Shown here: one piece after another, positions 20,333 through 28,931 of the stretch
Numbering within the stretch: the first letter of the stretch is position 1
Layout: each line of letters starts with the position of its first letter
Source: Chromobacterium sp. IIBBL 290-4
GTDB lineage: Bacteria; Pseudomonadota; Gammaproteobacteria; Burkholderiales; Chromobacteriaceae
Reading direction: 5' to 3'
Assembly: GCF_024207115.1 (NCBI RefSeq)
Contig: NZ_CP100128.1
Span: 496,001-560,000 of the forward strand
DNA: 64,000 bases
Made by a program: the position numbers and the translations under genes
Notes under the pieces: model-generated
What the model was told of the DNA's origin: nothing
Databases searched by the model: none
What the model saw: the letters and a program-made list of their open reading frames with translations, nothing else

Positions 20333-20947
20333 ATGAGCACTCCGTTCATCATTGGCGTTGCCGGCGGCAGCGGCAGCGGCAAAACCACGGTTACCAATAA
20401 AGTGCTGGAAACCATTGGTTCCGAGATGGCGGCCGTAATCATCCAGGACTACTACTATCGCGACCAGAGCCATCTGACCTTCGAACAGCGCCTGGGCACC
20501 AACTACGACCACCCGCAAGCCTTCGACTGGCCGCTGTTGATCTCGCACATCGATGATCTGCGCAATGGCCGCTCCATCGAGATGCCGCTGTACGACTTCG
20601 CCAACCACACCCGCTCCGACAAGACAGTCACCGTGCAACCGGCGCCGGTGATCGTGATCGAAGGCCTGTTCCCGCTTTACGACGCCGCGCTGCGCGAAAT
20701 GATGTCGCTGAAGATCTTCGTCGACACCGACTCCGACGTGCGCTTCATCCGTCGCCTGAAGCGCGACATCGCCGAACGCGGCCGCACCATGGAAAGCGTG
20801 ATCGAACAATACCTGTCCACCGTGCGCCCGATGCACAACCAGTTCATCGAGCCGACCAAGCGCTTCGCCGACGTGATCCTGCCGCACGGCGCCAACGATC
20901 CTGCGGTGGACATCATCACCACCAAGGTGGCCAGCTTGATGGTGTGA
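20333..20947 (+). CDS. udk: uridine kinase
   Basis: A 204-residue P-loop kinase that phosphorylates uridine and cytidine in pyrimidine salvage. The P-loop is GVAGGSGSGKTT. DYYYRDQSHL, NYDHPQAFDW and IEGLFPLYD are typical Udk segments, followed by RFIRRLKRDIAERGR. AAGGAAAG precedes the ATG. Confidence 0.95.
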   Translation: MSTPFIIGVAGGSGSGKTTVTNKVLETIGSEMAAVIIQDYYYRDQSHLTFEQRLGTNYDHPQAFDWPLLISHIDDLRNGRSIEMPLYDFANHTRSDKTVTVQPAPVIVIEGLFPLYDAALREMMSLKIFVDTDSDVRFIRRLKRDIAERGRTMESVIEQYLSTVRPMHNQFIEPTKRFADVILPHGANDPAVDIITTKVASLMV

Positions 20948-20970
20948 TCAGGCCTTCCCTGACCATAAAG

Positions 20971-21000
20971 AATGCCAGCGGCGCGAGCCCTGGCATTTTT
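20971..21000. terminator. terminator between udk and the graspetide locus, likely bidirectional
   Basis: AATGCCAG and CTGGCATT pair around a GC-rich 11-nt loop. TTTTT follows on the plus strand for udk, and CATTCTTTAT follows on the minus strand for the ligase gene ending at 21004. Confidence 0.78.
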
Positions 21001-21003
21001 CGT

Positions 21004-22017
21004 TCAGGCCGGGCTCGCCACACGGCGAGCATCTCTTCTGGCCGCCTGCCCCAATAGCGTCTCCGCCAATGCATCGGCGATGGGAAAACCCGTAGCAGTC
21101 TGCATCCAGACAAACTCGCCGGCGGGATTGATCTCCAGAAACACCCACTCGCCGGCCGGCGTCACGATCAAATCCAGCGCGCCGTAATTAAGCTGCAGCG
21201 CATCCATCAAGCGCAAAATCCGCCGCCGCATCTCCTCCGGCACCGGATACGGCCGCCATTCCTCCCGCAAGCCCGCGCCATCGCGCCGCCAGTCCACCCG
21301 GCTCTTGTCTCCGCGCTGCGAATCCACCGCACCGCAGAACAGCCGCTCGCCCACCACCGTAATGCGCAGCTCCAGCGCCTTGGGAATGTATTGCTGAAAC
21401 GTCATGGGACCGTTTGCCAGACTATCCAGTTGACGCAGATGCTCCTCGCGCACGCGGTTGGTATACATGACCCGGGTGACGTCATCGTCGCGGATGGTCA
21501 AGGCGCGCAGAGGCTTGGCGACGATATCGCCGTCAAAGCGGTGGTAAAACGCGCGCACCGCCTCCGGATCGTTGCTGGTCAGCGTTTCCGGCACCGTCAT
21601 GCCAAGCTGGCGCGCCAGTTTGAGCTGCAAAGGCTTATTGTCGGCTTGATACACTCGCTCGAACGGATCCAGCTGGAAGGCGTCGCTGCAGGCCAGCATG
21701 CCCTGCAGCACCGCGTAGCATTCGTGATAAACCGCCTCTTTGTGCGGCTTCGGCATCTCATCCGGCAAATTCCGCGCCAATGCCAGACGGCGGAAATAAA
21801 TGGCTCCCAACTCGTCCAGGCTGAAGCGCTCGCCGGCGGGACCAGTCAGCAGCTCGCTGCGCTCCGCCGCGGACGACGGCGCCAGATTGAGCCTGACCGA
21901 TGTCGGATATTGGTCGGTATTCAAACGAATGGGTTCGGCGCCGCGCGCCTTGAGCGCGGCTGCGACCAAGTCCGGACAATAAGGATCGCGGCTGTGGCTG
22001 ACGATCAAAACCTTCAT
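21004..22017 (-). CDS. MvdD-like ATP-grasp ligase, graspetide-type RiPP maturase
   Basis: A 337-residue ATP-grasp enzyme of the MvdC/MvdD (graspetide synthetase) family. These enzymes phosphorylate Asp/Glu side chains of a precursor and link them to Thr/Ser/Lys. Visible features are KVLIVSHSRD at the start and IVAKPLRALTIRDDD (nucleotide-binding lysine with the KPL..R pattern). ELRITVVGERLFCGAVDSQ, DWRRDG and the metal-binding closing motif FLEINPAGEFVWMQ also appear. The ATG at 22017 has GGAGAGG 8 nt upstream. It is the last gene of the locus, after two precursor genes, and is separated from them by a stem-loop. Product chemistry is inferred from family and from the TTxxxxEE cores. Confidence 0.85.
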   Translation of the reverse strand: MKVLIVSHSRDPYCPDLVAAALKARGAEPIRLNTDQYPTSVRLNLAPSSAAERSELLTGPAGERFSLDELGAIYFRRLALARNLPDEMPKPHKEAVYHECYAVLQGMLACSDAFQLDPFERVYQADNKPLQLKLARQLGMTVPETLTSNDPEAVRAFYHRFDGDIVAKPLRALTIRDDDVTRVMYTNRVREEHLRQLDSLANGPMTFQQYIPKALELRITVVGERLFCGAVDSQRGDKSRVDWRRDGAGLREEWRPYPVPEEMRRRILRLMDALQLNYGALDLIVTPAGEWVFLEINPAGEFVWMQTATGFPIADALAETLLGQAARRDARRVASPA

Positions 22018-22031
22018 CTTGCTGCCTCTCC

Positions 22032-22061
22032 AAAACAAAACGGGCGAGCCTCGGCTCGCCC
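22032..22061 (-). terminator. attenuator-like stem-loop between precursor and ligase genes
   Basis: On the minus strand GGGCGAGCC and GGCTCGCCC pair and are followed by GTTTTGTTTTGG, which then leads straight into the ligase ribosome-binding site. An 18-bp perfect palindrome (GCATGGGCT/AGCCCATGC) lies just upstream at 22067-22084. Partial termination here would make precursor mRNA more abundant than ligase mRNA. Confidence 0.72.
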
Positions 22062-22098
22062 TTTCGGCATGGGCTAGCCCATGCTTAATACTGAAAAA

Positions 22099-22317
22099 TC
22101 ACACCTCGAACAGCGGCGGCTGGTCGCCCTCTTCGCCCACCGCCAGAGTCGTGATCTGGTCGCGCAGAGGCGTGGAGGCATGCGATTCCTCGCCGATCGC
22201 CAGCGTGCTGGCATGCGACTCTTCGCCAATCGCCAGAGTTGTAGCTTGCGCGCCGCCGCCAACCAAGGCGATCTCATGATCTTCCAAAAATGCTGCGAAC
22301 AACGGTTTCTGAGCCAT
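22099..22317 (-). CDS. graspetide precursor peptide A with three TTxxxxEE-type cores
   Basis: A 72-residue peptide. The leader (1-25) has KPLFAAFLEDHE and a double glycine, VGGG at 19-22. The core region has three copies of one motif: T26-T27-LAIG-E32-E33, S37-T38-LAIG-E43-E44 and T56-T57-LAVG-E62-E63. The first two are joined by SHA. TTxxxxEE is the core pattern reported for plesiocin-type (group 2) graspetides, in which Thr hydroxyls are esterified to Glu side chains. The ATG at 22317 has GGAGG 8 nt upstream; an ATG two codons earlier would sit too close to it. The gene lies directly before the ATP-grasp ligase. No lysine follows the leader, so ester links are expected. Confidence 0.88.
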   Translation of the reverse strand: MAQKPLFAAFLEDHEIALVGGGAQATTLAIGEESHASTLAIGEESHASTPLRDQITTLAVGEEGDQPPLFEV

Positions 22318-22341
22318 GCTCATTTCCTCCAAAAACTTTGC

Positions 22342-22518
22342 TTAAAAGTCCTGCGTCGGCAACGGTTCGCCCGGATGTTCCGGTATGGCCATGGTGACCT
22401 GATCGCCCAGCAAAGCGTGGGTCACATCGAATTTGAACGGCGGCACAGCCTGCCCGGCGCCGCCGACCTGCTCGACTTCATGAGCTTCCAAAAATTGGAC
22501 GAAAAACGCTTGTTGCAT
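22342..22518 (-). CDS. second graspetide-like precursor peptide B with degenerate core
   Basis: A 58-residue peptide read directly from the minus strand, too short for usual gene calling. Its leader aligns with precursor A: FFVQFLEAHEVEQVGGAGQA against LFAAFLEDHEIALVGGGAQA, including the double glycine. The core differs. VTMAIPEHPGE aligns with TTLAIGEE but keeps only one Thr and one Glu at the motif positions, and VTHALLGDQ could supply a Thr-Asp pair. AAGGA lies 7 nt before the ATG. Its stop is 24 bp before precursor A starts, so the two are probably co-transcribed. It may make a differently linked product, or may be decaying. Confidence 0.78.
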   Translation of the reverse strand: MQQAFFVQFLEAHEVEQVGGAGQAVPPFKFDVTHALLGDQVTMAIPEHPGEPLPTQDF

Positions 22519-22837
22519 TTTAATTTCCTTGTCATTGCGCGACCTGCCGCCAAGGTCGGGTTCATCACGAGCGGCCGGCTTCTCGCGCCAGTCCGACGCC
22601 AGAAGCGATAAAACTCACGCAATAGGGAGTGGGAGCGGCACTTATTCAGGCCAAGCCGCTCAATAATGCGCATAAAATCCCAAAGGCATTAAAATGCATG
22701 CCAAATGCATTTAAGTCAAGATCATAATTGTTTCATGGCATTCACAAACCGCAGCGATGCGACCCCTGCTCCATCTCATCAGAGGTCGCTTCAAACGACC
22801 AAACCAGCCAGTTGGCAAAAATCAGCATTGGCCGCGC
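22519..22837. other. regulatory gap upstream of the precursor genes
   Basis: This 319-bp stretch separates the exporter gene from the precursor genes. It holds the promoter-like sequence and dyad at 22688-22719. An 83-codon minus-strand frame starting at 22673 runs through here but overlaps precursor B in another frame, so it is not accepted as a gene. Confidence 0.6.
22688..22719 (-). promoter_or_regulatory. promoter with a dyad in a 20-bp spacer, upstream of the graspetide precursors
   Basis: On the minus strand TTGACT (22719-22714) and TTTAAT (22693-22688) are 20 bp apart. The inverted repeat AAATGCAT-N5-ATGCATTT (22692-22712) fills the spacer. A dyad in an overlong spacer is the layout of MerR-family promoters. 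No MerR gene is seen in the window, so this is a suggestion only. Transcription would start about 160 nt before precursor B. Confidence 0.5.
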
Positions 22838-24988
22838 TCATGCATGGCTGGCCTCGCTCAAACGCTCACTAGCCAACGCTCTCTCACCACTGGCTATTCG
22901 TCCGCCAGCCATCGCCACCACACGGTCCGCCATCGCGATCGTCTCTGGCCGGTGCGCGATCACCACCCGTGTTAGCGGCAGGTCCCGAAGCGATTGATTC
23001 ACCCGATACTCGTTTTCCACATCCAGATGACTGGTCGCCTCATCCAAAAATAGAATGCTTGGTCGTTTATGCAGGGCTCGAGCCAGCAACAGGCGCTGCT
23101 TTTGCCCGCCGGAGAGCACTGCGCCCATATCGCCGATCAGCGTTTGATAAGCCATAGGCATCGCCAACACATCCTGGTGTACTGCCGCCATACGGGCTGC
23201 CACCTGCACCCGCTCCATGTCTGGACTATTAGCAGAAAAGGCAATATTTTCAGCGATTGAGCCGGCAAACAACTGATCTTCTTGCATCACCGCACCCAAG
23301 CGGCTGCGCCATTGTTTCAAACCCAAGCTCTGCATCGGCACGCCATCCACCAGTACCTCGCCCTGGCTTGGCTTAAGCAGCCCCAGCATCACTTTCAGTA
23401 AAGTGGTCTTGCCACAACCGGATGGGCCAGTGATAGCCATTGACTCCCCGGCTGCGATGCTCAGATCTACGCCATCGAGTATCCACGGCTCGCCTTCCGC
23501 ATGGCGGAAGCGCACCCCTCGCAGCTCCAGCGCCGGCGGAATCATCGCATCAGCCTCCTCTATGACTGATCCCGCTGCTACAGCGCTTTCCGGTTCGCTC
23601 AGCACGATGTCAGCCAAACGTTCGCGCTGAATGCGCAGCATGCGGATCTGAAAGAACAAATCCACCAGGCCGCCTACTCGGCTGGAAAACTGCATCTTGT
23701 AGCTGCCATAGGCAAACATCATGCCAATGGAAAACTGGTGATCCATTACCAGCAGCGCGCCGAAGTAAGTCACCAGAATGCCCTCCAGGCCGAAAATCAA
23801 TCCATTGGCCAACTGATACAAAGTAGACATGCGCTGAGTCGCCAAACCGCGATTGGTGCTGTTCACCACCAGATTCAACCACTGGCTGCGTCGGTCGCTC
23901 TCGCGATTGAACAGCTTGATCGACTGCGCGCCGCGTATGCTTTCCATGAAATGGCTCTGCTCGCGCGCCGACAATACAATCTGCTCTTCATTCGCCTGCT
24001 TGAACGGCGCATAGGTCGCCGCCCTGATCAAGATGTAGATCGTCAGCGCCAGCAAGGTGATCATGGCCAGCTGAACGCTGTAAAACAGCATCATCGCCAG
24101 CGCCAAGACCGCCATCACGCCATCCAGGATGGAACTGAGCGCGGTGGTGGTCAGCGTCTGGCGGATGGTATTGATGGCGCCGAAGCGCGACAGCACATCG
24201 CCCAGATGCCGCTTTTCGAAATACGACATCGGCAAGCCCAACAGCCGGGTAAACACGCTGGCTACCCACTGCATGTTCAGCTGAGTGGAAAAATAGATCA
24301 CCAGCCAGGAGCGCAAAGTTCCAACCAACATTTGCACCAGCATCAACATCAAAAAACCTAGCGCCATCACCTTGAGCAGGTCGCGGTCGTTCTGCACGAT
24401 CACGCCATCTATCACCCATTGTTGAAAAAAAGGCGCCAACAGCGTCATCACTTCCAGCGCGGCGGACAAGGCCACCACCTGGAAAATGGACCGCTTCAGG
24501 CCGAGCACCTGCCCTACCAAGGCGCGCAGGCTGACATCCTGTTTCTCTTCCTTTTTTTCGAACTGCGGCGTCGGCGACAACTCCAACGCCACACCGGTGA
24601 AATGACGCGATGTCTCCTCAAAAGAAAGCTTGCGCGCGCCAAAGGCGGGATCGTGAATCTCCACCCGCCCTGCCGCCACCCGCTTGAGCACCACGAAGTG
24701 GTTCAAATCCCAATGCAGGATGCAGGGAGTCTGCAACTGGTCCAATTCATCCAGTTCCAGACGCAATGGACGGCTGGCTAAGTGCAAGGCATCAGCATGC
24801 TCCACCAATTGCTTGAGCGTGGCGCCCTTGGCCGAGATCGCATAGCGGCGGCGCAAGCTGGCGATGTCGGACACATGGCCGTGAAAGCTGGCGATCATGG
24901 TGAGGCAAGCCAAGCCGCACTCGGCCGCCTCGGTTTGCAACAACATGGGGAGACGACGGCCAAAGCCGTATTGCAAGGCGTCCAACAT
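22838..24988 (-). CDS. peptidase-containing ABC exporter (C39 peptidase, PCAT)
   Basis: A 716-residue bacteriocin-type exporter that should both cleave double-glycine leaders and pump the product. The N-terminal C39 peptidase has C24 in QTEAAECGLACLTMI, H97 in HWDLNHFVVLK and D113 in HDPAFG. The transmembrane domain spans roughly 160-450. The ATPase has Walker A GPSGCGKTT, signature LSGGQKQRLLLARAL, Walker B ILFLDEATSHLD and the switch His in VIAHRPET. The ATG at 24988 has AAGGAAAG upstream and lies 2 bp after the membrane-fusion gene ends. Substrates available in the locus are the two graspetide precursors and the double-glycine peptide at 26662-27024. Confidence 0.93.
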   Translation of the reverse strand: MLDALQYGFGRRLPMLLQTEAAECGLACLTMIASFHGHVSDIASLRRRYAISAKGATLKQLVEHADALHLASRPLRLELDELDQLQTPCILHWDLNHFVVLKRVAAGRVEIHDPAFGARKLSFEETSRHFTGVALELSPTPQFEKKEEKQDVSLRALVGQVLGLKRSIFQVVALSAALEVMTLLAPFFQQWVIDGVIVQNDRDLLKVMALGFLMLMLVQMLVGTLRSWLVIYFSTQLNMQWVASVFTRLLGLPMSYFEKRHLGDVLSRFGAINTIRQTLTTTALSSILDGVMAVLALAMMLFYSVQLAMITLLALTIYILIRAATYAPFKQANEEQIVLSAREQSHFMESIRGAQSIKLFNRESDRRSQWLNLVVNSTNRGLATQRMSTLYQLANGLIFGLEGILVTYFGALLVMDHQFSIGMMFAYGSYKMQFSSRVGGLVDLFFQIRMLRIQRERLADIVLSEPESAVAAGSVIEEADAMIPPALELRGVRFRHAEGEPWILDGVDLSIAAGESMAITGPSGCGKTTLLKVMLGLLKPSQGEVLVDGVPMQSLGLKQWRSRLGAVMQEDQLFAGSIAENIAFSANSPDMERVQVAARMAAVHQDVLAMPMAYQTLIGDMGAVLSGGQKQRLLLARALHKRPSILFLDEATSHLDVENEYRVNQSLRDLPLTRVVIAHRPETIAMADRVVAMAGGRIASGERALASERLSEASHA

Positions 24989-24990
24989 GA

Positions 24991-26235
24991 TTAAAACTTT
25001 CCTTTGATCGCCAGCAAGGGCTCGAAGATCCACTCGATGATGCGGCGCTTATCCACCAAGATGTCCGCCTCCACCAACATATCGGCCTGTAATGGCTCTT
25101 GGCGGCCATAGGCCAGCACCGATTGCTTGTCCGGCTGCACGGTTACGCGATACAAGGGATCTTGATTGACGGCGGCCGGATCGGCGCGTAGCGCTGTGCC
25201 TGGCTGGGCGCTGCGAGACACTTCCAGCACCGTGCCTTCGTATTGGCCGAATTTTTGATAAGGGAAGGCGGCATAGCGCAGTTGCACCCGTTGGCCGGGC
25301 CGCACAAAGCCGATGGCGCTGGAGGGCGCGTAAAACCAAGCTTGCAGACGCGAACGCGCCGGCACGATGCTGGCCAGCGCCTGACCAGCGACTACTGCTT
25401 GGCCTTCTGTGGCTTGCAAGGAAGTGATGATCCCGGCAATCGGCGCGACCACCGTCAACTCGCGGCGGGATTCCGTTTCCCCTTGCTCCTGCTGCAAACC
25501 GTAAAGCGATCGCTCGATATCGCTTTTTTGCGTGTCATAGCGACTGGGCTGCGCTTGGATATCTGATCGCGCGGCATTGATCTGCGCGCCCAGATCCGTC
25601 GCCGTCCGTTCCAGCGCCGCCAGGCGCGCCTGTTGATCCAGCAGAGCGTCGCTTCTTTCCTGCACCTGCTGCGGCGGAGCAAAACCAGACTGCCCCAGCG
25701 CCTGATAGCGCGCCAACTGCGCCTGCGCGGATTGGACCCGGCTGCGCTGCAGCGCGTGTTCGGTTTCCAACTGCTTGCGCTGGGTTTCCAAGTCTTGCAG
25801 TTTTTGCCGCAACGCTGCCATCTGCTCGCCATTGAGCCGCGCCAGATTGCCCAGCTCGGCGCGAAAGTTGTCTTGCCGCTTGCGCAGGCTCAGCAACGAC
25901 TCGGCTGTGGTCTCTCCCAGCTTGGTCACCCGCTCGGCGGACACTGTGAACAAAGGCTGGCCGCGCGTCACCAACTGGCCCTCGCGCACCAGCCTCGTCA
26001 CCACCACGCCGGCTTGCAAAGGCGCGGCTTGGGCTAAGCCCAAGTCCGGCTGCAAACTGCCATGCGCTGGTATACGGCGGGTATAGTCCAGTGCAAACAG
26101 CATGATAAGGATGAGCAAGGTAAAAAACGAGGACAACGCTACCAATAGCCCGATCATGCCATTCTGTTTCAACAATGCCTTACCAGAGGTATTATTTTGG
26201 CTCTGATAATCTACAGCTTCTTTTCGAAATAACAT
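24991..26235 (-). CDS. HlyD-family membrane fusion protein, partner of the PCAT exporter
   Basis: A 414-residue periplasmic adaptor of the type I secretion/bacteriocin type. It starts MLFRKEAVDYQ, as colicin V CvaA-like adaptors often do, and has one membrane helix at about 27-50. A biotinyl-lipoyl half (VTRLVREGQLVTRGQPLF) precedes a long coiled-coil (about 100-250). The second lipoyl half is ELTVVAPIAGIITSLQATEGQAVV. It ends in the usual beta-domain and short tail. The start has a weak ribosome-binding site. It is coupled to the exporter gene; an outer-membrane TolC-like protein would have to come from elsewhere. Confidence 0.9.
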   Translation of the reverse strand: MLFRKEAVDYQSQNNTSGKALLKQNGMIGLLVALSSFFTLLILIMLFALDYTRRIPAHGSLQPDLGLAQAAPLQAGVVVTRLVREGQLVTRGQPLFTVSAERVTKLGETTAESLLSLRKRQDNFRAELGNLARLNGEQMAALRQKLQDLETQRKQLETEHALQRSRVQSAQAQLARYQALGQSGFAPPQQVQERSDALLDQQARLAALERTATDLGAQINAARSDIQAQPSRYDTQKSDIERSLYGLQQEQGETESRRELTVVAPIAGIITSLQATEGQAVVAGQALASIVPARSRLQAWFYAPSSAIGFVRPGQRVQLRYAAFPYQKFGQYEGTVLEVSRSAQPGTALRADPAAVNQDPLYRVTVQPDKQSVLAYGRQEPLQADMLVEADILVDKRRIIEWIFEPLLAIKGKF

Positions 26236-26365
26236 GTTACAACAGTATGTTTATAATATTAATTTAAAGCCAAATTGAATTAGAATAAATGACTCCAAAA
26301 GCTTTAACTTATTAGCAAAGCTTCAATAATTTTCAACCCAAAATAACGACTAAAAAACATGCTTT

Positions 26366-26518
26366 TCACTTATTAAATGAAAAATAAATTGACACAACAG
26401 TCAACACAATAATAATCCAGAATGGGTAGCCAAATGGATCTCTAGCATCTGGCAGTGCGGAAAACATCAAACATGGCCATATCATAATCATGATAAGTTT
26501 CACAAGCCTACTTTTCAT
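26366..26518 (-). CDS. small two-helix membrane protein, possible immunity protein
   Basis: A 50-residue frame read directly from the sequence, beginning MKSRLVKLIMIMIWPCLMF and ending FWIIIVLTVVSIYFSFNK. It has two hydrophobic stretches separated by ALPDARDPFGYP, consistent with a hairpin in the inner membrane. It lies between the double-glycine peptide gene and the membrane fusion gene on the same strand, the usual place for a bacteriocin immunity gene. The ribosome-binding site is poor (GAGTAA) and the sequence is not recognised, so it could still be chance. Confidence 0.5.
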   Translation of the reverse strand: MKSRLVKLIMIMIWPCLMFSALPDARDPFGYPFWIIIVLTVVSIYFSFNK

Positions 26519-26661
26519 AAAATTACTCAACTCTCATTAGATTGAATAAACAACTCATTAAATAAAGCAATTTACCGCGAAAGGGCCTAGTGAATTTATT
26601 AAAATTACATGGCTTATTTAATAAACACAAAGGCCCTATCAAATTCAAGTCACGCCAAATG

Positions 26662-27024
26662 TCACTCTAAATATCTATTACAGCGGTTATTATTCATTCT
26701 TTGTTGGAATCTACTATTTTCCTTAATTAGCTTATACCCGGTATATGCTGCCTTAGCCGCTGCAACTATACACACTGGGGCAGTAAATCCAGTCTCTGCA
26801 GTCGCACAGATTTCCCCCGCACGAGCTCCTTGATACACAACTGCAACACCTAGAGGTACAGACTCACTAATATGCTCACCAATAATTGTTTGACAAGGCA
26901 AAGAAATAGGTTCGCTACCTTGATTGCCACTGTCAGACATTTCTCTTCTCAATTCCATCCTATCAGCCTCATCCATACGGCCTCCGGAAATAAAAGATAA
27001 ATTTTCCTCTTTTATCGTATGCAT
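26662..27024 (-). CDS. double-glycine leader peptide, candidate microcin/bacteriocin
   Basis: A 120-residue protein starting MHTIKEENLSFISGG, a textbook double-glycine leader of class II bacteriocins and microcins with cleavage after residue 15. The remaining 105 residues start RMDEADRMELRREMS. They include a small-residue, hydrophobic stretch with two cysteines (GEICATAETGFTAPVCIVAAAKAAY) and a basic tail with a further Cys. GGAG precedes the ATG at 27024 by 7 nt. The GC content is clearly lower than in the flanking housekeeping genes, which suggests transfer. The exporter downstream carries the matching C39 peptidase. The activity of the mature peptide is unknown. Confidence 0.68.
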   Translation of the reverse strand: MHTIKEENLSFISGGRMDEADRMELRREMSDSGNQGSEPISLPCQTIIGEHISESVPLGVAVVYQGARAGEICATAETGFTAPVCIVAAAKAAYTGYKLIKENSRFQQRMNNNRCNRYLE

Positions 27025-27077
27025 CATCACTCTCCAAAGCAATATATCAATGTAATTAATGGTACGAAACTGTAAAA

Positions 27078-27086
27078 CTTATAACA
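27078..27086 (-). promoter_or_regulatory. extended -10 promoter upstream of the double-glycine peptide gene
   Basis: The minus strand reads TGTTATAAG, an extended -10 element, about 54 nt before the ATG. No good -35 is present. Confidence 0.35.
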
Positions 27087-27426
27087 TACCACCTCAACAA
27101 GTCACATCAAAGCCCTGAAATGACAAATGATTAAAGCATGGGGAATTTCATTTTGCAATAGAATGTAAACAAATTGAAAAACCATAACGATCTTTGTTGC
27201 AAAACCGCCCTATGACACCCAATGCAAAGCAATGACATTGCTCCCCATCAACATACAAGGGCACCAACTGGAAACCTAAAAATCAACACTCAAAATGCAC
27301 TGGTCATTTATGATTTTACTGGAATTGGTACAGCATGATCGTATATCACGGTTCAGTTATGCCGCCATTTAGTTCTGCCTGATTGGAAAGAGAACAGCCA
27401 GGGCACGCAATTTTGTAACGAGATCC

Positions 27427-27557
27427 GGCTTTGTTGCATAACTAAAAATCATGCCAGAATGTGGAAGAATTATGGTGGAAAATTCCACACTAAATCAGCA
27501 ATTTTCTCTACCTTTCTTGCTACACCGTGGCACAAAAATTAGTTATGCAACAAAGCC
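27427..27557. mobile_element. 131-bp MITE-like element or IS remnant with perfect 19-bp terminal inverted repeats
   Basis: GGCTTTGTTGCATAACTAA (27427-27445) and its exact reverse complement (27539-27557) bound 93 bp of internal sequence with no gene. The ends resemble those of IS5/IS903-type elements, which start GGCTTTGTTG. No target duplication is visible in the flanks (…GATCC and TTTCT…). It is either a non-autonomous element or what remains after internal deletion of an insertion sequence. Confidence 0.7.
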
Positions 27558-27949
27558 TTTCTTATCTAATAAATTCATATCTCTCCTGACATTAATGCAG
27601 CTGATCCGTGCTGCACGATTTTCTCAACAGAATTCCTATCAACCAATGCATTTAAAATGGCTATAAAGAGAAAGAAATAACAATATGCTCTTCAAAATCC
27701 TATAAGTAGATGTTTTTCGAACCCAAGACCAGTACATTTCATTTACATTACACCAATTCAAAAATAAACTCAATTGTCATTTTTTGTTATGTGCAACGCC
27801 TCGTCCTCTTGACACCCCGTCTCCTCTTCCATGCGAGCTGACAGCATCGTATCGACATTGCTCGGCGGGAGCGTTCTTGCTACTTGACGCACCTGGTTTC
27901 GCCTTTCACAATCACCCAGCTATCTCGACATGACCAGCAAGAGGACAAT

Positions 27950-28249
27950 ATGCCTACCATCAAGCCGCGCAACCCATTGGCTTGCGCGCCGATACTGAAA
28001 AAGGGCGGAGCCCATGGCCAAAGCCGCTCCGGACAGCGCCGCAGCCAGAAACAAGCGATGTGGATGGAATGGGAAGACTGGCAAGATGAGCGACAGCTCG
28101 CCGCTCAACAGCAAGCATCAGACGCCGAGGAGGTTTTTTTGAAATCGGCAGCCCCAAAAGAAACAGGCCATCACCCGATGGCCTGTTTCTTTTGGGGCTG
28201 CCCCTCTCCCGCAGTCTTCGCGAGACGCGGATCTGCCTCTGGCATGTGA
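27950..28249 (+). CDS. small basic hypothetical protein, possibly frameshifted at its 3' end
   Basis: As read, a 99-residue protein starting MPTIKPRNPLACAPILKKGG and rich in Gln/Arg/Lys to residue 60. AGAGGA lies 5 nt before the ATG. The last 36 codons run through a 26-bp perfect terminator-like hairpin. A run of seven T (28134-28140) just before it decides the frame: with six T the protein would stop after ...DAEEVF at 63 residues, 8 nt before the hairpin. The short form looks more natural. Function not recognised. Confidence 0.5.
   Translation: MPTIKPRNPLACAPILKKGGAHGQSRSGQRRSQKQAMWMEWEDWQDERQLAAQQQASDAEEVFLKSAAPKETGHHPMACFFWGCPSPAVFARRGSASGM
28147..28202. terminator. 26-bp perfect hairpin, terminator-like
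   Basis: Arms 28147-28172 and 28177-28202 are exact reverse complements with a 4-nt loop ACCC. The right arm contains TTTCTTTT followed by GGGG, so it is not a classical T-tailed terminator. Its placement just after the likely true end of the small gene at 27950 suggests transcription termination or RNA stabilisation. Confidence 0.6.
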
Positions 28250-28478
28250 TTGATCGACGCGTGGCCAGTCGGCTAGGCAATGATATCGAACAGACGATCA
28301 AGCCCGCCCCGCTGGCTAGCGCGCAATCATCCAGCCCAAGCTTGCAGCAGCGTTCGACAAGAATGCCGCTGGACCCGCGTCTTAATCCGCGCAACAATTC
28401 AGCACACTCCGTTTACACAATAAGACAGTGGCGGCCAGTAGAATGCCGGCATTGTCTCCATCCCTTGGAATGTCTGTC

Positions 28479-28931
28479 ATGAAGTGGATCGTCAGCGCCC
28501 TGCTGCTGCTCAGCCTCGCCGGCTGCGGCAGCATGGGTTTCAAGAAGCCTCAGGTCAGCCTGAGCAATGTGGAACCGGGCAAGAGCACCCTGTTCGAGCA
28601 GAATTTCACCGTCACGCTGCGCATCGCCAACCCCAACCCGGTGCCACTGAACGCCAGCGGGCTGGACTTCGAGCTGATGCTGGGCGGCGACAAGCTGGGC
28701 AACGGCAACAGCGCCCAGGCCATCTCCATTCCGGCCAATGGCGAAGGACTGGTGCCCTTGCAGGTGCACACGTCCCTGGCGGCCTGGATTCGGCAGCTGG
28801 CCAATTGGCAGCAGCTGCCGGGCGGCAAGCTGGAGTATCAGATCCGCGGCGAGCTGAAAGATTTGAACGGCCTCGCCACGCTGCCCTTCGACAATCGCGG
28901 CGAATGGAAGCTGCCGCAGATCGGCAAATAA
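28479..28931 (+). CDS. LEA type 2 family lipoprotein
   Basis: A 150-residue predicted lipoprotein. The signal peptide MKWIVSALLLLSLAGC ends in the lipobox LAGC, so Cys16 would be lipidated. The mature part has the pattern of bacterial LEA14-like/WHy domains: VTLRIANPNPVPLNASGLDFELMLGG, IPANGEGLVPLQV and a closing PFDNRGEWKLP. GGAA lies 8 nt before the ATG at 28479. Function of such lipoproteins is not well defined; an envelope stress role is often assumed. Confidence 0.8.
   Translation: MKWIVSALLLLSLAGCGSMGFKKPQVSLSNVEPGKSTLFEQNFTVTLRIANPNPVPLNASGLDFELMLGGDKLGNGNSAQAISIPANGEGLVPLQVHTSLAAWIRQLANWQQLPGGKLEYQIRGELKDLNGLATLPFDNRGEWKLPQIGK

Follow-up and report, generated by a model that had tools for sequence, protein, structure and literature searches.

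The 64,000-nucleotide stretch of the Chromobacterium sp. IIBBL 290-4 genome analysed here (contig NZ_CP100128.1; hereafter the window) carries a putative graspetide locus of seven genes, all of which were confirmed on the minus strand between positions 27027 and 21004, as an initial annotation made from the letters alone had listed them. The most downstream gene (21004..22017, refined start 22017) encodes an MvdD-type ATP-grasp graspetide ligase of 337 amino acids (aa). It is preceded by the genes for graspetide precursor 1 (22099..22317, 72 aa, leader MAQKPLFAAFLEDHEIALVGG) and precursor 2 (22342..22518, 58 aa, leader AFFVQFLEAHEVEQVGG), whose leaders align as one family, in agreement with that annotation. 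Farther upstream lie the genes for a peptidase C39-containing ATP-binding cassette (ABC) exporter, an HlyD-type periplasmic adaptor, a small membrane protein and a double-glycine peptide. We propose, at a probability of about 0.82, that this graspetide locus, with its single ligase, belongs to the microviridin/chryseoviridin (MvdD) lineage and that its bicyclic core motif has been replaced by a plesiocin-like TTxAxGEE motif.

The core of precursor 1 contains three [ST]TxxxxEE motifs of the form [ST]TLA[IV]GEE, namely TTLAIGEE (22219..22242), STLAIGEE (22186..22209) and TTLAVGEE (22129..22152), all on the minus strand. None of 100,000 shuffles of precursor 1 reached three such motifs, and precursor 1 is the sole frame with at least two of them among the 1,134 stop-to-stop frames of at least 30 aa in the window. 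We take TTxxxxEE to be the motif of the plesiocin group, as did the initial annotation. The leader element PLFAAFLE (22282..22305, minus strand) aligns with PFFARFLE, with Ala in place of Arg, and a single STPLRD (22159..22176, minus strand) provides an [ST]x4D element, the counterpart of TxxxxD in the chryseoviridin motif TxxxxDxxxTxKxPSDxD[DE] (PMC8939145). The core of precursor 2 reads DQVTMAIPEHPGE and has VTMAIPEH at the place expected for TTLAVGEE; it is either decayed or a variant with one ring. The TTxxxxEE core that had been annotated for the locus is therefore present in precursor 1 and absent from precursor 2.

Exactly two proteins of the genome match PF21068. The second ligase, 62% identical to that of the window, lies about 0.92 Mb away in a locus (L007, 8960-15657) comprising the ligase, two precursors, a double-glycine peptide, and divergently transcribed genes for an HlyD adaptor and a C39 exporter (38% and 51% identical to their counterparts in the window, respectively). 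The precursors of the second locus carry TTLAVGEE/STMAVGEE and TTYVVGEE/TTMVVGEE, and three of the four precursors of the genome contain TTxxxxEE repeats. The four leader elements (PLFAAFL, AFFVQFL, PLFVSFL and PLFAAFL) keep the position and type of PFFARFL and have all lost the Arg, and ExxxVGG closes the leader in all four. A comparison of the two loci shows hardly any change at the motif residues (first unit: T, T, G, E and E; last unit: T, V, G, E and E after S or T) and variable linkers, which points to selection on the motif.

The earlier description of the ligase as MvdD-like stands. PF21068 (MvdD pre-ATP-grasp) matches at 98.5 bits against a Pfam cut-off of 27, and TIGR04184 is the top NCBIfam model at 349.3 bits (E 1.9e-104), which is below its equivalog cut-off of 475. 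Among solved structures, the ligase scores 278 bits to 5ig9 (MdnC), 208.7 to CdnC (7mgv), 197.8 to 5ig8 and 193.2 to AMdnB (7m4s), followed by 119.2 to 9bou, 53.5 to 7drm, which we take to be PsnB, the plesiocin ligase, and 22.4 to 3vpb. In an IQ-TREE phylogeny of 60 ligases, seven database proteins among them, with the root drawn at the midpoint only, the two ligases of the genome pair (100/100) and are sister to the MvdD ligases of Roseateles, Pelomonas and Mitsuaria, three Sphaerotilaceae (99/98). The nine MvdC ligases in the tree form one group (100/100) that excludes both. Four ligases from loci found with the TTxxxxEE precursor profile (Scytonema L157, Brasilonema L158, Calothrix L160 and Archangium L163) group apart (100/99); these four score 78-160 bits on our ligase profile, versus 459-549 for 80 relatives. 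Calothrix L160 was matched by the precursor profile but not by the strict pattern TT[LM]A[VILM]GEE. Archangium L163 forms a very long branch, and its precursor and ligase frames overlap on opposite strands, so that their pairing is doubtful; near two further Archangium TTxxxxEE precursors (L159 and L162) the ligase profile recognised no ligase. Residues K168, D282, E295 and N297, presumably the ATP-grasp active-site candidates, are invariant in 29 ligase sequences.

The locus had initially been grouped as plesiocin-type, which would make ligase, leader and core alike members of that line, and the TTxAxGEE core does resemble plesiocin-like precursors such as P0155, whose leader LFIEDLG, seen also in P0155-like proteins, we take to be the plesiocin type. 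The structure matches, the ligase tree and the leader, which is of the PFFARFL type, all speak against this grouping; we have rejected it and regard it as very improbable. Among 100 proteins with at least two TTxxxxEE motifs, a collection restricted to proteins that have short words in common with the queries, a PFFARFL-like leader occurs only in the three from this genome; none of the other 97 has one, and their starts include LFIEDLG, LYIADLPE, MNHPFDLDPAELE and MKPITxQQAEQVTGA. The locus shares with plesiocin and other TT[LM]A[VIL]GEE precursors the repeated core motif and a single ligase, one ligase being what plesiocin needs (PMC8939145), and differs from them in leader and ligase group.

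For comparison with the MvdD lineage we used the best 80 of 271 relative loci from an alignment-based scan of named genomes; counts of precursors and cores in these loci depend on regular expressions. A precursor with a PFFxxxL leader and TxxxPSD-type cores lies near the ligase in 76 of the 80, and the remaining four (L019, L027, L045 and L080) have no readable precursor, the ligases of L019, L027 and L045 being less than 350 bases from a sequence end. None of 27,073 frames of 26-249 aa in the 80 loci contains [ST]TxAxGEE or two [ST]TxxxxEE motifs. Relatives that keep the ligase without a TTxxxxEE precursor, which the initial annotation had said would refute it, are thus what was found in 76 of 76 loci with a readable precursor. 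The finding is nonetheless real, in that both loci of this genome carry what reads as a switched core on a microviridin-lineage scaffold. Among what was searched, the microviridin-lineage leader and ligase are joined to a TTxAxGEE core only in this genome, in two loci. In the passages of the open literature covered, a scope outside which two main graspetide surveys lie, nothing pointed to a TTxxxxEE core behind a PFFARFL-type leader. Ligases of one branch are described as accepting varied cores behind a common leader (PMC8939145), which makes a core switch less surprising.

The ligase matched in two of 19 genus genomes at E 0.001, strongly only in this genome itself; in three of 61 family genomes, two of them weakly; and, at 1e-40, in eight of 369 class genomes, the own genome counted. 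The two weak family matches (32% and 24% identity, partial) were rejected as members, and two class-level matches of the precursor profile (G334 and G083) were discarded as weak and lying inside frames of 765 and 325 aa. A sister species (L004, G022:C1:3509007-3509573) has a distant ATP-grasp homologue with 32% identity over query residues 116-308, possibly part of another peptide-modifying locus.

Precursor 1 is 31-33% identical to three precursors of the sister group, whose scaffold TSP[IL]KDD..VTLKYPSDGDD aligns with [ST]x4D..[ST]TxxVGEE of this genome. The Roseateles stretch TSPIKDDVVVTLKYPSDGDD has its counterparts here in STPLRDQI-TTLAVGEEGD, TSPLNDLIHMSTMAVGEEGP and TTPLVDQHHFTTMVVGEEEH. 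TLKYPSDG and TLAVGEEG align without a gap, with an extra Thr or Ser in front, and the second alcohol of the core would accordingly be shifted to the N-terminal side relative to TLKYPSDG. A TxKxPSD core is absent from every precursor of the genome, the motif lysine is gone, and no Lys lies inside any TTxxxxEE motif. Set against the chryseoviridin pattern, the [ST]x4D element appears to have been retained and the bicyclic motif exchanged; an element resembling [ST]x4D ahead of TxxxPSD was matched in 16 of the 80 relative loci, some by chance. The new core may have been imported by recombination from a plesiocin-like precursor instead of arising stepwise from TxKxPSD, as the identity extends to non-reacting residues (TTLAVGEEG). 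We consider such an import possible and yet the less probable course, given the gapless alignment within a conserved scaffold, the occurrence of Lys-free cores (TMAYPSD) in Paraburkholderia, and the presence of LAxG within the TTxxxxEE motif of many leader types, so that function may force it.

The core switch would have gone together with loss of the lactam. In microviridins, two esters are made by MvdD and a Lys-Glu amide by MvdC (PMC7823629). No lactam ligase (MvdC/MdnB) was found in the genome, in which PF21068 and the ligase profile each match the two ligases only; PF21068 does detect a sister MvdC (101.1 bits), and the ligase profile detects MvdC elsewhere. With the motif lysine gone and no MvdC found, no amide is expected. 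Among relative loci with readable cores, those with two ligases have Lys in every core in 63 of 65 cases and are mixed in two, whereas those with one ligase, meaning no second ligase within the retrieved DNA, lack Lys in five of 11, are mixed in four and have Lys throughout in two. Four single-ligase loci from Paraburkholderia and Methylococcaceae (L029, L040, L057 and L085) have TMAYPSD-like cores without Lys at the motif position, and perhaps represent an ester-only sub-line of microviridin-type peptides. They resemble the loci of this genome in having no MvdC nearby and in the loss of Lys from their cores, and differ in keeping PSD, in having PFFAHFL, PFFSHFL or PFFARFL leaders, and in having no TTxxxxEE.

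Recognition of the leader seems to have changed as well. In MdnC, leader Arg17 contacts Glu191, Asp192 and Asn195 (PMC7823629). The window ligase has His193 at the Asp192 equivalent and keeps the Glu191 equivalent (Glu192); the second-locus ligase also has His at the MdnC-192 position, and Glu at 195. A leader Arg and an acidic residue at the MdnC-192 position occur together in 67 of 67 loci (65 Asp and 2 Glu, with the L016 leader PFFARYL counted as Arg-bearing), while six of the nine loci without the Arg are non-acidic there and three keep Asp. This covariation supports, rather than proves, a joint shift of leader and ligase in which loss of the Arg accompanied loss of the Asp192 equivalent. 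Both ligases of the genome differ at 25 sites with at least 90% consensus in the relatives. The three sister ligases agree with the relatives at 17 of the 25, and five of those 17, in the segment 169-176, are candidates for core recognition.

The product would be, as the best reading, an ester-only graspetide with a switched core. The PLFAAFLE leader helix would bind the ligase, which with ATP would activate Glu/Asp side chains of the core and join them to Thr/Ser hydroxyls, giving two predicted esters in each TTxxxxEE unit and possibly another in [ST]x4D. Precursor 1 could then undergo up to seven dehydrations (-126 Da), and each second-locus precursor up to five (-90 Da). The neighbouring C39 exporter would remove the leader behind its GG and pass the peptide on through HlyD, and the same exporter may also export the unrelated double-glycine peptide. 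All characterised graspetides are described as protease inhibitors (PMC8939145), so protease inhibition would be the likeliest activity here. Plesiocin rings are nested and microviridin rings interlocked (PMC13097080); MvdD first links Thr38 to Asp44, six residues apart (PMC7823629), and changing a ring of microviridin K by one residue gave no cyclic product (PMC12291112). If the six-residue preference of MvdD persists, a retooled microviridin-type ligase might join T1-E7 and T2-E8 in a staggered fashion instead of the plesiocin nesting. We offer this pairing tentatively and hold it to be rather unlikely; were it true, the core letters would be the same as in plesiocin, the ring topology would differ, and the two lines would have come to that core independently.

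Several points weigh against the proposed core switch in an MvdD-lineage locus. The cyclisation chemistry is deduced from sequence and the ester rings are predictions; precursor 2 is without a TTxxxxEE motif; and five otherwise conserved ligase residues at 169-176 deviate in both ligases, a possible sign that activity has been altered or lost. The tree took in 38 of the 80 fetched MvdD ligases, and support for its deep forks between MvdC and the MvdD rows is low (83/70 and 87/69), some of them being open. The best database ligase matches (e.g. P0013, 49%) come without known gene neighbours, and further genomes with the same combination of ligase and core may exist. As to leader recognition, three Paraburkholderia loci with a leader His and Asp kept break the Arg/acidic rule, both ligases have a non-acidic residue at just one of the three MdnC leader contacts, the Asp192 equivalent, and relatedness among some of the loci without the Arg (Bacteroidota, Phycisphaerae) leaves few independent events. 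On the export side, the two exporters are 51% identical and oriented differently relative to the ligase, about 10 kb of flank in L009-L011 gave no exporter or HlyD homologue, and the G+C content of the double-glycine peptide and membrane protein genes (35-41%, versus 57-62% in the other genes) suggests that these two may be a separate acquisition.

Precursor 2 and the 25 deviating ligase sites would also fit a decaying locus in which the ligase has lost its cyclising activity and the precursors persist as relics. Both ligases are, on the contrary, full-length open frames with the active-site candidates kept, and the motif residues hardly differ between the loci; we judge decay improbable.

The assignment of the locus to the MvdD lineage with a switched core is drawn from the ligase group, the leader, the core, the failure to find MvdC, the covariation of leader and ligase, and the adjacency of the exporter, all read from sequence data. 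The locus resembles chryseoviridin/CdnC systems in ligase family, PFFARFL-type leader, the order of [ST]x4D and bicyclic motif, and the GG leader end, and differs from them in having TTxAxGEE for TxKxPSD, no motif lysine, no lactam ligase found and no leader Arg. With microviridin systems (MdnA/MdnB/MdnC, MvdC/MvdD) it shares the ester-forming ligase type and the leader helix; unlike them it has no TxKxPSD core and no MvdC/MdnB found, and each TTxxxxEE precursor has two or three core units. The kind of peptide, a graspetide, is itself known; what appears to be new is a microviridin-lineage ligase and leader with a plesiocin-like core, twice in one genome. According to a review, core motif and ligase group coevolved in plesiocins, microviridins and thuringinins (PMC7823629). 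Here one core motif would stand on two very different leader/ligase lineages, with the likely ancestral core, TxKxPSD, readable from the sister group, which argues against assigning a graspetide group by core motif alone. As a natural experiment the two loci bear on three questions: whether ring topology is set by the core sequence or by the enzyme, how loss of the lactam ligase comes about, and which residues (the leader Arg, ligase Asp192 and the ligase segment 169-176) rewire recognition.

The exporter (22838..24988, minus strand, 716 aa) combines PF03412, PF00664 and PF00005, all above cut-off, and the adaptor (24991..26235, minus strand, 414 aa) matches PF13437 above and TIGR01843 below cut-off, in line with their annotation as a peptidase-containing ABC exporter and an HlyD adaptor. 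Fusion of a C39 peptidase with the membrane and ATPase domains of an ABC protein is the make-up of a peptidase-containing ABC transporter (PCAT), and the exporter itself is ordinary; like other PCAT (C39) and HlyD systems it has the usual domains and GG substrates, and each of the two PCATs of this genome stands near graspetide precursors plus another double-glycine peptide. The ExxxVGG leader ends fit a C39 peptidase. C39/ABC genes top the partner list of ATP-grasp graspetide loci (PMC8939145), which makes the pairing of exporter and graspetide an ordinary one. The double-glycine peptide (26662..27027, minus strand, 121 aa) has a GG leader, MMHTIKEENLSFISGG, which is the one mark of a class II microcin-like bacteriocin (GG leader, toxic core and immunity gene) read directly from its sequence. 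Searches of 19 genus genomes, 369 class genomes and a plasmid collection gave no relative. The small membrane protein (26366..26518, minus strand, 50 aa) matches no family above cut-off and is a possible immunity protein; the names BioW, CbiD, YadA_head and CorA (Pfam/NCBIfam), which scored below cut-off, were dropped for the small proteins.

Exporter, HlyD, membrane protein and double-glycine peptide could instead form a separate neighbouring bacteriocin system, the graspetide being exported otherwise. The differing G+C content of the peptide and membrane protein genes and the gap of about 320 bp between exporter and precursors favour this, as do exporters in 11 other species of the genus that are close relatives (79-88% identical) of the second-locus one: the 14-kb regions around them contain no ligase, and nine of the 11 contain double-glycine peptide candidates (by a permissive pattern). 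These same relatives make it plausible that a resident exporter came to take both kinds of peptide, and hence that one exporter serves the graspetide and an unrelated double-glycine peptide. Since a C39 exporter and HlyD stand near the ligase in both loci, all four precursors end their leaders in ExxxVGG, and C39/ABC genes are the commonest partners of such loci, we find a separate system somewhat unlikely. None of the 14-kb exporter regions in sister species gave a match to the flanks of the second locus, and no shared site is claimed. Near the second locus there is also a small family of double-glycine peptides (L007 2255-2431, 2499-2666 and 10892-11104, all on the minus strand). Their leaders resemble one another, F[DE]xQLxxSLxIAxxVRL..., their short tails do not, and one of the peptides has PLTGKxV in repeated form.

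Conserved seven-gene synteny in related genomes, which had been suggested as a check, was seen in no other genome searched. At 11 of 17 udk loci in other species of the genus, the gene corresponding to 28476-28931 lies within about 0.5 kb of udk (in the remaining six it was not found within 1.5 kb of retrieved flank). In this genome about 7 kb separates the two (window 20947-28476), and the block has the appearance of an accessory insertion in this species.

A hairpin followed by T separates the last precursor from the ligase in both loci of the genome; in the window it is a terminator-like hairpin (22042..22061, minus strand) of eight pairs, seven of them G-C, in the gap between precursor 1 and the ligase. 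The region contains 10 terminator-like sites versus 8.9 in shuffles, no excess, and given this rate the hairpin common to both loci is a mere hint of an attenuator. The low G+C content (35-41%) spans window positions 26366-27900, covering the membrane protein, the double-glycine peptide and the stretch upstream. At 27427-27557 lies an element resembling a miniature inverted-repeat transposable element, with 30-nt inverted repeats (83%) starting GGCTTTGTTGCATAACTAA; its end motif has one further copy in the genome, with one mismatch. A perfect 26-nt inverted repeat with a 4-nt loop is located at window positions 28147-28202.

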